Part shown: positions 1 to 9,080 of the stretch, in pieces
Position numbering within the stretch: the stretch's first letter is position 1
Layout: each line of letters begins with the position of its first letter
NCBI GenBank assembly: GCA_003697105.1
Contig: RFFQ01000182.1
Span: 1-9,080 of the forward strand
DNA from: Gemmatimonadota bacterium
GTDB lineage: Bacteria; 4572-55; J002
Direction: 5' to 3'
Length of the DNA stretch: 9,080 bases
Position numbers and translations under genes: made by a program
The notes under the pieces: model-generated
The model's input: only the letters and a program-made list of their open reading frames with translations
What the model was told of the DNA's origin: nothing
Databases searched by the model: none

Positions 1-920
1 GCATAATCAATCTGAAACATACGGACGTTAAGCCCCGCGCCATACGTCATATCCCCTTCTTGATTACCCAACCGGAGTGCTACCCGTTGCCCCAGGCGAT
101 ACTCTAACCCGAAATACAAATCCCCGCTAACGGTATCACTGCCGAACTGCGCGGCGCTATTTCGCCCTTCAAACAACGTATTGAGGTCTCCGCTGAGGGT
201 TACTTCCCCCAGCGGTGCGCCGGTTGTGAAGGCAAATCCCAACCGTAAACTTGGAGTGATGGTCTCCGTGGTACTCTCTTCGGTATCCCACACCAACGGG
301 CTGGAGGTTGCATCTTTGAGCACGACGCCGACCAGCAGTCGCGGTGAAAGGGCATAAATGGCACCGACATCTAACCCTAACCCCCACGCATGATTATCAA
401 CCGTTTTTTTGTAGATCATCTTGACCGAACCGCCCACTTTCAACTTTAAGCTAAGATGGCGTCCATAGGAAAAATAGAGGGCATTTTGGGCATCACTGCT
501 CATTTTAATGTTGTCCAAATTGAGGGTTTCACCGGGGTCGAGGACGCCATTGCCATTTAGGTCATTCAAGGCACCGGTCGTCACCGGAATATCACCGATA
601 CTGAGCCGCACCAAACTGAGAGATAACGTACCGTTTTCACCAAAAGGTTGGGCATATGCGCCATAATCGTAATTGGCAATATCGCCAAATTGCTCCGCGT
701 GCATTAATACCAATTCCCGTTCGCCCACCCAAGAAAGTCCGGCAGGATTCCAGTAGCTGGCAGTGGCATCATCTGCCAAACCCGTATAAGCACTACCCAT
801 ACCCAATGCCCGGGCGCCAACACCTAAACTGAGAAACTCCCCAGCGTATTTTGTGGCGTAACTCTGGGAACCCCATCCCACCAAAATAATAAGCACCAGT
901 AAGGCGGTTTTCCGTAACAT
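1..920 (-). CDS. PorV/PorQ-family outer-membrane protein, 3' end cut by window
   Basis: Read on the minus strand from the ATG at 918-920, the frame stays open for 306 codons to the window edge, so the C-terminus is missing but probably only by a few dozen residues. The N-terminus (MLRKTALLVLIILVGWGSQS then YA) is a typical Sec signal peptide with cleavage expected after SYA. The mature start has the family hallmark: FLSLGVGARALGMGSAYTG, then DDATASYWNPAGL. Both are characteristic of PorV/PorQ (UPF0164-like, FadL-related) beta-barrels. The rest alternates short amphipathic strands with Gly/Asn/Asp turns, including a DLNGNGVLDPGE loop that resembles a calcium-binding DxNxDG-type turn. PorV acts in type IX secretion in Bacteroidota, but many homologues in other phyla sit in genomes without that system, so a T9SS role is not claimed. 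It is transcribed away from the arcC operon. An excellent Shine-Dalgarno sequence fixes the start. Confidence 0.9.
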   Translation of the reverse strand, partial: MLRKTALLVLIILVGWGSQSYATKYAGEFLSLGVGARALGMGSAYTGLADDATASYWNPAGLSWVGERELVLMHAEQFGDIANYDYGAYAQPFGENGTLSLSLVRLSIGDIPVTTGALNDLNGNGVLDPGETLNLDNIKMSSDAQNALYFSYGRHLSLKLKVGGSVKMIYKKTVDNHAWGLGLDVGAIYALSPRLLVGVVLKDATSSPLVWDTEESTTETITPSLRLGFAFTTGAPLGEVTLSGDLNTLFEGRNSAAQFGSDTVSGDLYFGLEYRLGQRVALRLGNQEGDMTYGAGLNVRMFQIDY

Positions 921-3862: not shown

Positions 3863-4666
3863 ATGCAACTGGAAGGTCCGGTTCGACGATTCCAACTGGC
3901 ACACGTTTACCGGGAATTGGCATACGAACGCCAAACCGGCATGTTGATCGTCAGTGATCGCAACCGCCAAGCCGGCATCTATTTTAGTAATGGACAACTT
4001 GTGTTCGCCAAACAATCCAGCCAGCAAGACCGGTTGGGAGACCGGTTGGTTGCCAAAGGATATATCACCGAGGATCAACTGCGGGAGGCAATCACCATCC
4101 AACGCCGTTCCGATGAAACCCGCCGGTTAGGGCGGATTTTGATCGATGAACAGTTCGTGGGAGCCGCCATCATAGAGCAGTTGATGCAGGATCAAATTAA
4201 AGAGGTCGTGCTTGAAGTCTTGGATTGGAATTCCGGCACATACCGGTTTATGACCGGCATGTCCCCCCCAGAAGAAGATGTCCTTCTTCAGATAGCTATT
4301 GAAAATTTGATCTTGGAAGGTCTGCGGCGCCGGGTCCAATGGGAAGATGTTCGGACGGATTTTGTCCCCGCCGAAACCGTTTTCGGATTGAAACCTCGGC
4401 CCAATAGGGCGGATATTACCTTGCACCTCACTGCTGAAGAATGGAACACCCTGACGCAGGTCAATGGTATCCGGACGCTGGACGAACTCCGAAAAACATC
4501 GACCTTAGATGCCGATGAGACCGGGCGAATCCTGTATATTTTGTACCAAACCGGACTTATCCATCCCGTCAACGGAACGCTTGTAGAAGATAAACTGCAC
4601 CTCAGCGAGAAAGTAGCACACCTGAACCAGCTCTTGGAGGCATTTTTGACTACTGCAAAGGCGTAA
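3863..4666 (+). CDS. PATAN/DUF4388 domain signalling protein
   Basis: A 267-residue soluble protein. Residues 1-50 match the start of the PATAN (PatA N-terminal, DUF4388) domain: LEGPVRRFQLAHVYRELAYE..., a 'TGMLIVSD' strand, then 'AGIYFSNGQLVFAKQSS'. Two copies of the helical insert typical of the family follow: DRLGDRLVAKGYITEDQL (56-73) and RRLGRILIDEQFVGAAIIEQL (87-107). Next come the 'EVLDWNSGTYRF' strand and the 'IAIENLILEGLRR' helix. Residues 165-245 look like a winged-helix-type end (LTAEEWNTLTQVNGIRTLDELRK ... ILYILYQTGLI). In other bacteria this domain occurs in response regulators and in cyanobacterial and myxobacterial motility or chemotaxis-type regulators; here there is no receiver domain, so it would act as a stand-alone partner. 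Its start follows a strong GGGGAGGAG 7 bases before the ATG. The next gene begins 3 bases after its stop. Confidence 0.82.
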   Translation: MQLEGPVRRFQLAHVYRELAYERQTGMLIVSDRNRQAGIYFSNGQLVFAKQSSQQDRLGDRLVAKGYITEDQLREAITIQRRSDETRRLGRILIDEQFVGAAIIEQLMQDQIKEVVLEVLDWNSGTYRFMTGMSPPEEDVLLQIAIENLILEGLRRRVQWEDVRTDFVPAETVFGLKPRPNRADITLHLTAEEWNTLTQVNGIRTLDELRKTSTLDADETGRILYILYQTGLIHPVNGTLVEDKLHLSEKVAHLNQLLEAFLTTAKA

Positions 4667-4669
4667 TTC

Positions 4670-5395
4670 ATGCCGGAAACTGCGTACCAGCATCTTATCG
4701 CGACATTGGATGCAAGCTTAGAGCGCATCCTGCAAGCCTTTTTTGCGGAAGACCCCCGCCGGGTATCATTTGATGTGGAAACGTGGATGTCACAAATGAA
4801 CTCGGTCGCGCAAAGTTATGTGGCACCCGTCCAAAAGCTGATGCGCTTACAGCACCTTCTCGACGATGCCGGGGAGCAATTCCAATCGGGTGAATTGCCA
4901 CTGCCGGTCTTACAACGCCTAATGCAATTGCTCACCGATCTGCGAACCTCCCGCTTTTCCGGTGAATTTTACCATGCCATTCAAACCGGTGAAGTGCAAG
5001 CGGAACAGATAGACCACTTATTAAACGGTATTTTCCGATTTATCATCCTCCACACCCCGGAAACCGAACTGCTGATCCCCGGGGAAAAAGGACAATGGCA
5101 ACAGGTGGTACTCCACAAAGGGGAAATCCACCCAGAAGACCACGAAAAAGAATTTTTAAGCTACTTATTAACCTACCAAATTGACGCCTTGTTGCATCGC
5201 TACCACGAACAAGATCGATTGTATGACATCGCAAACGAACATCTACACGTCCTCGAAGAACGTTATTCCCGCGAGGATGAGCTTTTCGTGGGGATGATGA
5301 TTTACTATTTGCAGCTACGCCACCAACCGGTTGACGATCTCATCCGGCGCTTCAAGGCGATACGGCAAGCACAACCGGATTTTATTGACTTTTGA
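4670..5395 (+). CDS. Unknown soluble helical protein between PATAN and tandem-DnaA genes
   Basis: I do not recognise this 241-residue protein. It has no signal peptide or membrane segment and no cysteine. It is rich in Leu, Gln, His and acidic residues, with long amphipathic helices suggested around 50-130 (MRLQHLLDD..., VLQRLMQLLTDLRTS) and 185-235 (YHEQDRLYDIANEHLHVLEERYSRED, then IRRFKAIRQAQPDFIDF). A short strand-like section lies in the middle (TELLIPGEKGQWQQVVLHKGEI, about 135-156). The ATG is 3 bases after the PATAN stop with AAAGG at 4657-4661. Its stop lies just ahead of, or within, the start region of the tandem DnaA gene. Tight linkage on both sides suggests a physical or functional partner, perhaps an adaptor; that is inference only. 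Confidence 0.75.
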   Translation: MPETAYQHLIATLDASLERILQAFFAEDPRRVSFDVETWMSQMNSVAQSYVAPVQKLMRLQHLLDDAGEQFQSGELPLPVLQRLMQLLTDLRTSRFSGEFYHAIQTGEVQAEQIDHLLNGIFRFIILHTPETELLIPGEKGQWQQVVLHKGEIHPEDHEKEFLSYLLTYQIDALLHRYHEQDRLYDIANEHLHVLEERYSREDELFVGMMIYYLQLRHQPVDDLIRRFKAIRQAQPDFIDF

Positions 5396-5415: not shown

Positions 5416-7497
5416 ATGAGTTTCCTAGACCAAAAATTGATTCCACATTATGTGTTCGATACCTATGTGGTGGGGCACAATAATCGATTAGCATTTGCTG
5501 CCGCTAAGGGTGTAGCAGAGAACCCGGCTTATACGTACAACCCCTTATTCATTTACAGCAGTGTAGGGTTAGGCAAAACGCACCTATTGAACGCCATTGG
5601 CAACGCAATCGTTCAGAGTAACCCGCAAATGAAAGTGGTATATAGCTCGCTAGAAGTGGTGATGGAGAGCCTCACCGGGCACATGAGCCGGGGTACTCTA
5701 AATGAATTTCGATTCTCATTTGAAGAAATTGATGTCTTGCTCCTCGATGATGTCCAGTTTTTAATTGGGCGTGAAGAAAAGCAAGAAGAATTTATCCGTA
5801 TTTTTGATATGCTGTTGATGAATTTAAAACAACTGGTCTTTACCTCGGATCGTCCCCCAACGGATATGACCACCCTAGAAGAACGGTTGCGTTCTCGCTT
5901 TCAGGGCGGATTGATCGTTGATATCCAACATCCCGATTTAGAAACACGAATCGCCATCCTCCAACGAAAAATTAAAGAAACCGGACGTACAGTACCCCCC
6001 GAAGTCGTCCATAAAATTGCCGAGAATGTCCCGACCAATGTGCGGGAATTAGAAGGCGCTTTGAACAAAGTATTGGCACATGCCCTGCTGACCGACCGCG
6101 AGATTTCGCTGGAAGTCGCCCGTGAAGCATTGGGTGAAAAACCCGCCCCAGCGCCGGAAGTCAAAACGCTGGAAGAATTCCAAAAAGAACAAGAAGCCCT
6201 TTCCAACGAATTTTCGGACTTTTTGAGCGGCGTTTCCGAAAAAGTGGAAGGTATCGCCATCGAAATCAGCCAACACCAACGCGAAAAAGATGAACTCCGC
6301 GAAAAAATTAAAATGTGGGAGCATCGTGGATTTGAGGTCGATAGCATCCGCCAAGCACTCCGCGGCACCATAGAAGATGCCAAACGTGCCTATCAGGAAT
6401 TTGAACAAAACGTGCACCGGCTTATGGAATTACAAGACGAACTTAGCGCACTGGAGGTGCCCAAAGAGGAACTATTTGAGGTTCGCCGAATTCAAGCCCG
6501 CTTATTTGATCCAGCCGCCGTGGCGTGGTGTGAGCAAGCCATCGCGACCCTACGGGAAAAGTTGGAAACCGAACAGTTTGATTTTGACCTCCCCCTAGAT
6601 GATTATCATTTTGAAGATTATATCGTGGGCGAAAGCAACAAAATGGTCTATCGGGCGGCACAATTGATCGCGGAAGCGCCGGGTGAACGCTATAACCCGC
6701 TGTTTATTCACGGAGGCGTCGGCGTGGGGAAAACACATCTGCTCAATGCCATCGGAAACCGTATCCTCCAAAAGTACCCTCAGCGGAAAGTGGCGTACCT
6801 CAGTGCCGAAAAATTCACCAATGAACTGATTCAGGCAATTAGTGATAATCAAGTAGAGAAATTTCGAGCGAAATACCGGTCAGTGGATGTACTTATGATC
6901 GATGACATTCAATTTTTAGCCGGGCGGGAACGCACGCAGGAGGAATTTTTCCACTCCTTCAATGCCCTGTACACCGTCCATAAGGCGATCATCCTGACCA
7001 GTGATCGCTCCCCCAAAGAACTTACCACACTGGAAGACCGCCTCCGATCCCGCTTTGAAGGCGGATTAGTTGCGGAAATCAAAGCCCCGACTAAAGAAGT
7101 CCGTACCCAGTTGATTGAACGCATTTTAACCCGCGAAAACATTACGATGGAGCCGGCGCTGATCAACCATATCGCCGATACCATCCAGACCAATATCCGC
7201 GAGTTGATCGGCGCCGTAAACCGGATTGTTGCCAACTGCGTCCTCAATGATCTACCCCCGACCCAGGAGATCGTTGATGCGGTACTGGTCGAGGTTGCCG
7301 GGACAAGCAAACCCGCCGTCACCGCTGCAACCCCCGCAGGACAAGCGCCGATTTCCACATGGGAACAGACACTGTTGGCACAGATTCCGAAAATCGAACA
7401 GCACTGGCGAACCCTAGATGTGTTACTGCATCATGACTACCTAACAGATGAATATCGTGTGGAAAAAGTGCTCCAACTGGCTGATGATAATAGCTAA
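5416..7497 (+). CDS. Tandem DnaA-type AAA+ ATPase without DNA-binding domain
   Basis: A 693-residue protein with two DnaA-family AAA+ modules joined by a long helical linker. Module 1 (about 12-242): altered P-loop SSVGLGKT (48-55), Walker B VLLLDDVQF (107-115), sensor 1 FTSDR (142-146), box VII RLRSRF (157-162), sensor 2 NVRELEGALN (208-217). Linker (250-385): charged heptad-like helices, likely coiled coil. Module 2 (388-628): FEDYIVGESNKMVY, canonical P-loop GGVGVGKT (433-440), LMIDDIQFLAG (493-503), LTSDR, RLRSRF (542-547), NIRELIGAVN (593-602). A 65-residue tail follows. DnaA domain I and the helix-turn-helix domain IV are absent, as in the much shorter Hda, so it is not a replication initiator. 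I chose ATG 5416 because homology begins just after it. An upstream in-frame TTG at 5392 overlaps the previous stop and would add 8 residues; GGGAG at 5397-5401 is rather far from 5416. Confidence 0.9.
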   Translation: MSFLDQKLIPHYVFDTYVVGHNNRLAFAAAKGVAENPAYTYNPLFIYSSVGLGKTHLLNAIGNAIVQSNPQMKVVYSSLEVVMESLTGHMSRGTLNEFRFSFEEIDVLLLDDVQFLIGREEKQEEFIRIFDMLLMNLKQLVFTSDRPPTDMTTLEERLRSRFQGGLIVDIQHPDLETRIAILQRKIKETGRTVPPEVVHKIAENVPTNVRELEGALNKVLAHALLTDREISLEVAREALGEKPAPAPEVKTLEEFQKEQEALSNEFSDFLSGVSEKVEGIAIEISQHQREKDELREKIKMWEHRGFEVDSIRQALRGTIEDAKRAYQEFEQNVHRLMELQDELSALEVPKEELFEVRRIQARLFDPAAVAWCEQAIATLREKLETEQFDFDLPLDDYHFEDYIVGESNKMVYRAAQLIAEAPGERYNPLFIHGGVGVGKTHLLNAIGNRILQKYPQRKVAYLSAEKFTNELIQAISDNQVEKFRAKYRSVDVLMIDDIQFLAGRERTQEEFFHSFNALYTVHKAIILTSDRSPKELTTLEDRLRSRFEGGLVAEIKAPTKEVRTQLIERILTRENITMEPALINHIADTIQTNIRELIGAVNRIVANCVLNDLPPTQEIVDAVLVEVAGTSKPAVTAATPAGQAPISTWEQTLLAQIPKIEQHWRTLDVLLHHDYLTDEYRVEKVLQLADDNS

Positions 7498-8002: not shown

Positions 8003-9080
8003 AATATGTTTGGCTATATGGACTCATCCTACTAATACACCTCGCTTCTGCCAAAGGTAGCCCAGCCGCACAAGCTCTGGTGAACAATATGGGATTAAGT
8101 GGCGGACTGGCAGAATGGTCACCGGATGGGCGGCAACTCGTTTTTGTGTCCACCGAAGGGTCCCGGCGCGGTATGGCAACCAATCTCTGGATTATCAACG
8201 CCAACGGTAGTGGCAAAAAAATGATTACCGATAATAGTTCTTGGGATAGTTATCCTTCGTGGTCGCCGGATGGAACACGCATTATCTATTCCTCACACCC
8301 AGATGGTCGCCCGAAAGAGCGGCATCTTTGGGTGATAAACCGCAACGGAAGTAACAAACAGCGCCTATCCACCCCTGTGAGCAATCCAACCGCCCCGCAA
8401 ATTTCACCTTCAGGACGCGAAGTCCTCTTTGTCTCAGGCGATAACCGTATCTGGAAAATGAATCTGGATGGCACAAATGCCTGCCAACTGACTCACCAAA
8501 AATCAACCCATCCCAGTTGGTCACCCAATGGACGGCATATCCTATTTGCGCAATACAGTCCCAAAACCCGTTACGACATCTGGGTGATGGATGCCGACGG
8601 CGAAAACCCACGACCCATTTCCACAGACATGCACAATGAATCCCACCCGCGCCTTTCACCCGACGGGTCAATGATTCTTTATGAAGTGTGGGATTTGCAA
8701 ACCCGCTCCCGGCGCATCTGGGTCATGAATGCGGACGGAACCAATAAACACCCCTTGAACACAGGTGGTCAAGAAGATGGAATGCCGCGGTGGTCACCGG
8801 ACGGTCACATGATAGTTTTCAATTCCTGGGACCAACAAGAGCACAACCGGTTACAAATCCTTCCGGCGCCGCGTCCACCGTCACAACCGCGATCGCTGCC
8901 CCGCCCCGTCCGGGTAATCCCCCCACGCCAACAGTGGACCACGGATAAAACCCCCGTGAAGCCCGCTACCCCCCCACCCCCCCCCCCCCCCCCCCACCCC
9001 CCCCCCCGCCCCCCCCCCCCCCCCCACCCCCCCCCCCCCCCCCCCACCCCCCCCCCCCCCCCCCCCCACCCCCCCCCCCC
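7999..9080 (+). CDS. Secreted six-repeat PD40/TolB-like beta-propeller protein, 3' truncated
   Basis: The frame opens at GTG 7999, overlapping the lipoprotein stop by 4 bases (GTGA), with AAGGA at 7988-7992 at good spacing. It runs off the window. MKYVWLYGLILLIHLASA is a Sec signal peptide, cut after ASA. Six PD40 (WD40-like, TolB-type) repeats follow, marked by WSPDG (40-44), WSPDG (88-92), SPSG (136-139), WSPNG (174-178), SPDG (220-223) and WSPDG (265-269). Each is paired with a strand such as LWIINANGSG, LWVINRNGSN, IWKMNLDGTN, IWVMDADGEN or IWVMNADGTN. This predicts a six-bladed periplasmic propeller. TolB's N-terminal domain is missing, so it is not TolB itself. After about residue 280 comes a Pro/Arg-rich tail. 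From residue ~325 the translation is poly-proline from the C-tract and should not be trusted. Confidence 0.85.
   Translation, partial: MKYVWLYGLILLIHLASAKGSPAAQALVNNMGLSGGLAEWSPDGRQLVFVSTEGSRRGMATNLWIINANGSGKKMITDNSSWDSYPSWSPDGTRIIYSSHPDGRPKERHLWVINRNGSNKQRLSTPVSNPTAPQISPSGREVLFVSGDNRIWKMNLDGTNACQLTHQKSTHPSWSPNGRHILFAQYSPKTRYDIWVMDADGENPRPISTDMHNESHPRLSPDGSMILYEVWDLQTRSRRIWVMNADGTNKHPLNTGGQEDGMPRWSPDGHMIVFNSWDQQEHNRLQILPAPRPPSQPRSLPRPVRVIPPRQQWTTDKTPVKPATPPPPPPPPHPPPRPPPPPHPPPPPPTPPPPPPHPPP
8969..9080. repeat. Near-pure poly-C tract at the window end, probable artefact
   Basis: From 8969 the sequence is C except for A at 8976, 8996, 9026, 9046 and 9068 and one G at 9008. Such a tract (poly-G on the other strand) at a contig end is typical of two-colour Illumina no-signal reads that were assembled. 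It is embedded in an otherwise ordinary ~50% GC coding sequence, and nothing else in the window is low complexity. A genuine proline-rich tail encoded only by CCC is very unlikely. Confidence 0.85.

Follow-up and report, generated by a model that had tools for sequence, protein, structure and literature searches.

A tandem DnaA-type AAA+ protein family in the Che/MglA/PATAN operon of Gemmatimonadota

Introduction

The ATPases of the DnaA clade (DnaA, Hda, DnaC, and IstB) are known for their work on DNA, and Hda acts through its AAA+ arginine. In Myxococcus, type IV pili are switched on via MglA, which recruits the 14-TPR protein SgmX, and cell polarity is inverted by Frz signalling (PMC11580455, PMC7519303, PMC7668184). 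Here, we describe a family of proteins in which two DnaA-type AAA+ modules are joined in one chain and whose genes lie among chemosensory genes, and we compare it with these systems. Our search of open-licence papers on DnaA together with MglA, CheA, or PATAN, on Gemmatimonas chemosensory systems, and on DnaA paralogues found no description of this tandem family.

Results

P0001 carries two complete DnaA-type AAA+ modules

The window, that is, the whole stretch of 9,080 nucleotides analysed here, is the entire contig C64 of a 4.18-Mb assembly. The tandem protein encoded on it, P0001, is divided as follows.

5416..7497, plus strand: P0001, a tandem DnaA-type AAA+ protein of 693 aa; open reading frame with two Bac_DnaA domains, orthologues found
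5437..6135, plus strand: AAA+ module 1 (residues 8 to 240), the proposed catalytic ATPase; its ATPase residues are retained by almost every member
6136..6594, plus strand: helical linker (residues 241 to 393), homologous among tandem members and with predicted helices
6595..7311, plus strand: AAA+ module 2 (residues 394 to 632), the proposed arginine-finger and regulatory module, based on conservation and the AlphaFold fold match
7312..7494, plus strand: C-terminal tail (residues 633 to 693), the WxWPDxxxRhhEE tail of the family in diverged form (EQHWRTLDVLLHHDY), assigned by eye

The reading frame is open upstream to a TTG at position 5392, and the ATG at 5416 agrees with the N termini of homologues. 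The Pfam model Bac_DnaA gave two matches in P0001 (E value of 2.3e-126 over the whole protein), and the motifs are intact in both modules: Walker A K54, Walker B D111/D112, sensor 1 D145, box VII R157/R161, and sensor 2 R210 in module 1, and the corresponding K439, D496/D497, D530, R542/R546, and R595 in module 2. The initial annotation, which had read two full DnaA-type motif sets in this one chain, is thereby confirmed. It had also held that domain I and domain IV are missing, and Pfam agrees, reporting no match to either in P0001. Module 1 begins at residue 8, with no N-terminal domain I before it, and the NCBIfam DnaA model aligns in two stretches, the best of which spans profile positions 105 to 343 of 437 and therefore leaves the domain IV part unmatched. 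As a warning for annotation, TIGR00362 (DnaA) scores P0001 at 634 bits, far above its cut-off of 343.9, and so labels it DnaA. The genome's own full dnaA, with a product of 464 residues, is a separate gene on a different contig. The two modules of P0001 are 48% and 47% identical to this true DnaA and 42% identical to each other.

In the AlphaFold model of P0001 (mean pLDDT of 77), both modules are confidently predicted AAA+ folds, and the predicted fold of module 2 matches DnaA domain III with a Z score of 29. The model of the monomer thus upholds the two AAA+ modules, and their placement relative to each other is left unfixed by it (pTM of 0.46). The helical linker is conserved, as is the C-terminal tail; the initial annotation lists neither. 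The linker carries a conserved W..(K/R)GF motif, and in P0001 its helices are predicted at residues 252 to 304, 309 to 345, 350 to 363, and 366 to 385, with a pLDDT of about 60. Most tandem members end in WxWPDxxxRhhEE, a motif present in no other open reading frame of the tandem loci; about 16 extra residues follow the diverged form of this tail in P0001.

The arginine finger of module 2 outlasts its nucleotide site

We compared the modules across 58 tandem proteins, which are not independent and include one duplicated pair and one broken entry. Residue names such as K178, R281, and R285 follow the numbering of E. coli DnaA and were assigned by motif. In module 1, the lysine of Walker A, the two aspartates of Walker B, and the arginine of sensor 2 are each present in 57 to 58 of the 58 proteins, and the box VII arginines in about 55. 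In module 2, the box VII arginines equivalent to R281 and R285 are present in 57/58, the Walker A lysine in 52/58, the sensor 2 arginine in 43/58, and the sensor 1 aspartate in 21/58. When the approximately 240 columns of module 2 were ranked by conservation, R281 came 3rd and R285 7th, followed by D235 (15th), K178 (19th), D236 (28th), R334 (86th), and D269 (194th). Four members, at loci L204 to L207, have had Walker A and Walker B of module 2 destroyed and retain an intact finger motif, R(L/M)RSRFEGG. This is the pattern expected if module 2 donates an arginine finger to module 1. The idea of a built-in dimer in which the arginine of one module completes the ATP site of the other, put forward in the initial annotation, thus gains indirect support from the box VII ranks and from the persistence of the finger after Walker loss in these four members. 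Module 1 may also serve as an arginine donor, because its own box VII arginines are conserved.

Losses in module 2 could alternatively mean that the protein is a scaffold without a meaningful ATP cycle between its modules, in which module 1 works alone and module 2 is a decaying copy retained for folding or binding. Such decay would fit the loss of sensor 1, of sensor 2, and, in five members, of the Walker lysine. However, the R281 and R285 equivalents, kept in 57 of 58 proteins, have outlasted the nucleotide site of module 2, and plain decay would not spare them. We consider a scaffold unlikely, albeit worth keeping in mind.

The modules also differ at positions of single-stranded DNA contact. 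In module 1, the V211 position has changed to histidine in 43/58 proteins and the R245 position to glutamate in 52/58 (P0001 has threonine and glutamate, respectively), and module 2 has valine or isoleucine at V211 and arginine at R245 in nearly all members. Both modules of most members have glycine at the position of W288 of canonical DnaA. Retention of V211 and R245 in module 2 would be consistent with a DNA-acting ATPase, for example one that takes part in DNA uptake or serves as a transcription factor, in which module 2 binds single-stranded DNA via the DnaA-specific insertion motif. Among canonical DnaA proteins, however, 19 of 59 have arginine at the R245 position; conservation of this arginine in module 2 is therefore no sure sign of single-stranded DNA binding, and for this reason we dropped the V211/R245 argument as proof of such binding. 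The opposite charge at R245 in module 1, the missing domain IV, and an operon without DNA-metabolism genes also argue against action on DNA, which we regard as improbable.

Tandem genes belong to a chemosensory operon

In Gemmatimonadota, homologues with the same two-module layout have the genes of a Che/MglA/PATAN operon as neighbours. The order is cheW-cheY-cheA-cheC-TPR-PATAN(DUF4388)-mglA-TANDEM-PATAN/TPR-cheD-cheB, with a variable place for cheW. Across 45 tandem loci, a protein search placed a PATAN/TPR gene in the neighbourhood in 39, mglA in 35, cheA in 31, and cheC in 30, and in a translated DNA search, only five of the Gemmatimonadota tandem loci with a visible slot were without mglA beside the tandem gene. 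Of 36 cases, 18 show an overlap of exactly 4 bp between the stop of mglA and the start of the tandem gene; the stop of the tandem gene abuts or overlaps the start of the PATAN/TPR gene. Pfam confirmed CheW, CheA, CheC, CheD, CheB, and PATAN domains in the operon, and the operon GTPase matches solved MglA structures at 3e-60. The tandem family is a fixed member of the Che/MglA/PATAN operon in Gemmatimonadota. Gene neighbourhood is evidence of shared function, not of contact. An apparent fusion of MglA to the tandem protein at L213, L273, and L276, with an N-terminal extension of 190 residues, was rejected, the extension being mglA in the wrong frame.

The initial annotation had envisaged a nucleotide switch acting either on DnaA or on neighbouring signalling proteins. 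The latter is supported, because the family is fixed in this operon; the former is not. An Hda-like regulator would dock on ATP-DnaA and trigger hydrolysis with its finger, so that the chemosensory pathway would tune replication initiation. The two modules belong to the DnaA/Hda clade and come without domain IV, and the N terminus of P0005, a paralogue of P0001 described below, carries QLQLF, which is similar to a sliding-clamp motif. Yet P0005 is the only one of 45 tandem proteins with such a motif at the N terminus, where the other 44, P0001 included, have none. Furthermore, TIGR03420 (Hda) gives P0001 183.2 bits, below its cut-off of 194.8, and the genes linked to the tandem gene are for signalling, with no linked replication gene. 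An Hda-like role therefore seems to us quite improbable.

The tandem layout is widespread in Gemmatimonadota and has a single origin

The genome that encodes P0001 has a second tandem protein, P0005, on contig C53 (locus L006, 6924-9017, minus strand), which is 44% identical to P0001 over its length. A third, with 37% identity to P0001, is encoded by G001, the one genome of the same class that was examined, and the scan of a single named collection turned up another tandem protein, encoded by a Gemmatimonas MAG. With a strict whole-protein threshold, 40 of 150 Gemmatimonadota genomes gave full-length tandem matches. This threshold undercounts the family, and the slots were inspected in cheC-positive genomes. 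Twenty such genomes are without a strict match: 14 have a full two-module protein in the same slot, in 3 the contig stops before the slot, and 3 are exceptions, namely, a truncated, 395-residue AAA protein (L267), broken pieces (L269), and cheA and cheC without mglA or a tandem gene (L279). Tandem carriers make up at least 54 of the 150 sampled Gemmatimonadota genomes. In a domain-wide sample of 386 genomes, the tandem protein occurs only in P0001's genome, G001, and three genomes, of which two match genomes on the Gemmatimonadota list in their coordinates and the third (G353) shares its locus with G064 on that list.

The modules sort into three clades in a tree, one for canonical DnaA (support of 100/92), one for module 1 (98/86), and one for module 2 (100/98). 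The two modules of P0001 lie in the second and third of these, outside canonical DnaA. A larger tree that includes divergent fusion proteins agrees on canonical DnaA and module 2, with module 1 less resolved. The tandem layout is ancient, has a single origin, and stands apart from canonical DnaA. An artefact in which a misassembly of two genes, the concern of the initial annotation, or a missing stop joined neighbours into one frame is refuted by the same two-module chain with its homologous linker in P0005, in G001, and in more than 50 other genomes, dozens of them Gemmatimonadota, and its probability is close to nil.

P0001 lies beside a PATAN gene in a genome with a scattered chemosensory system

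Two genes precede the tandem gene in the window.

3863..4666, plus strand: P0003, 267 aa, a PATAN (DUF4388) protein with an inserted MshEN-type c-di-GMP-binding motif; DUF4388 match at 6e-26, NF053729 above cut-off
4670..5395, plus strand: P0002, 241 aa, between the PATAN gene P0003 and the tandem gene, with gaps of 3 and 20 nt

The gaps of 19, 3, and 20 nt between the upstream accC, P0003, P0002, and P0001 suggest that these genes form one operon. The MshEN-type insertion of P0003 matches the structures of MshE, PilB, and PilF. P0003 is in the same gene run as P0001, as is usual for PATAN genes in the tandem family, and at other loci too PATAN genes adjoin tandem genes; P0003 is likely to share an operon with P0001 and to be its functional partner. 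P0002 has no family match in Pfam or NCBIfam and was not found in other tandem operons; it occupies the place held by mglA in the Gemmatimonadota operons. At the left end of the window (3-920, minus strand) lies a gene for a PorV/PorQ-family outer-membrane protein, a relative of type IX secretion, and at the right end (8805-9080, minus strand) a glycine-rich, low-complexity open frame that is probably not a gene.

The 9-kb contig contains no mgl or che gene. P0001 belongs to the tandem protein family, and we infer its place in the pathway from orthology and from its PATAN/MshEN neighbour instead of from adjacent che genes. In G001, the tandem gene ends a run of cheA, an ExeA-like ATPase gene, cheW, cheC, TPR, and PATAN. 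The genome of P0001 has cheW-cheY-cheA-cheC, closest to the G001 genes, on contig C7, a TPR gene next to P0005 on C53, an orthologue of the PATAN/TPR gene on C103, and mglB-mglA on C54. Here the system is scattered over several contigs, and P0001 is one of two paralogues; P0005, which lies beside the TPR gene, may instead be the copy that truly belongs to the operon.

Loss of the module 2 Walker lysine coincides with absence of mglA

The Walker lysine of module 2 has been lost in five Gemmatimonadota members, those at L192 and L204 to L207. The same five are the only Gemmatimonadota loci with a visible slot and without mglA beside the tandem gene (L211, which begins at the tandem gene, was left out of this comparison), and they fall in two separate lineages. 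Few as they are, these two evolutionary events suggest that nucleotide binding by module 2 is connected with MglA. The rule is not universal, since tandem genes of P0001's class keep the lysine without an adjacent mglA. In one version of our model, a replication-initiator ATPase, duplicated in tandem, was recruited into the chemosensory pathway, where it would serve as a switch driven by ATP and would act directly with MglA: module 1 would hydrolyse ATP, the arginine finger would come from module 2, and module 2 would need to bind nucleotide only where MglA is present. We advance this version tentatively and hold it to be possible but doubtful.

Discussion

In more general terms, we propose with middling confidence that the tandem protein is a non-replicative, DnaA-derived AAA+ ATPase of a chemosensory pathway that comprises CheA, the Ras-like GTPase MglA, PATAN proteins, and a large TPR protein. 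Module 1 would bind and hydrolyse ATP, and module 2 would supply the arginine finger, either in cis or to a neighbouring chain. Turnover of ATP would change the assembly state, or the partner binding, of the helical linker and C-terminal tail, and this state would be set by signals from CheA, by c-di-GMP (via PATAN/MshEN), or by MglA-GTP. Fusions of a DnaA module with TPR arrays or MshEN, compared below, may be counted in favour of this proposal.

By analogy with MglA, SgmX, and Frz in Myxococcus, the output is probably control of type IV pili and surface movement, and it would include cell polarity. Several PilT/PilB-type ATPases are encoded in P0001's genome, in G001, and in the operon-bearing genomes G198 and G108. 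FliM had no match in these four, whose assemblies are incomplete, and flagella are therefore an unlikely target there. Other tandem carriers (G060, G079, G129, and G141) have FliM, so the output is perhaps not always pili.

The family presents a DnaA-derived protein that is fixed in a chemotaxis-type operon over much of a phylum and coupled to a Ras-like GTPase. If the proposal is true, chemosensory pathways gain an ATPase element not described before, and the tandem proteins offer a natural two-module system in which the logic of the AAA+ arginine finger can be tested by single mutations.

Comparison with known systems

Other proteins also contain DnaA-type modules. At L030 (6458-12001, minus strand) and L215 (3531-8783, plus strand), very long TPR arrays finish with one DnaA-type AAA+ module, and domain IV is absent. 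At L216 (1816-13430) and L217 (1961-11360), the products of three consecutive genes all join an MshEN-type N terminus to a DnaA AAA+ module, and in the MshEN-DnaA protein of 1993 residues two DnaA modules are separated by more than 1200 residues. At L031 (2512-7752, minus strand), a protein of 1746 residues has two divergent DnaA-like AAA+ modules with about 1000 residues of coiled coil between them. Like the tandem family, the TPR-DnaA (L030, L215) and MshEN-DnaA (L216, L217) fusions lack domain IV and place a DnaA-type AAA+ module in a signalling-type setting. They differ from the family in architecture and lineage and fall outside both the module 2 and the canonical DnaA clades.

With DnaA itself, the tandem proteins share the Walker, sensor, and box VII motifs of domain III; the modules of P0001 are 47 to 48% identical to its genome's DnaA, and the fold matches as well (Z score of 29). 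Unlike DnaA, the tandem proteins have two modules, no domain I or IV, glycine at W288 in most members, clades of their own, and linkage to signalling genes. Hda and HdaA likewise are DnaA-type AAA+ proteins without domain IV, but Hda consists of one module and a clamp-binding motif, whereas P0001 has two modules, a sub-cut-off Hda score, and no N-terminal clamp-like motif.

As a pathway, the closest likeness is to the Frz/MglA/SgmX system of Myxococcus xanthus, which likewise brings together chemosensory proteins, the MglA GTPase, and a large TPR protein (PMC7519303, PMC7668184, PMC11580455). We found no DnaA-type ATPase described in that system, whereas in Gemmatimonadota such an ATPase, in tandem form, is a fixed member of the operon.
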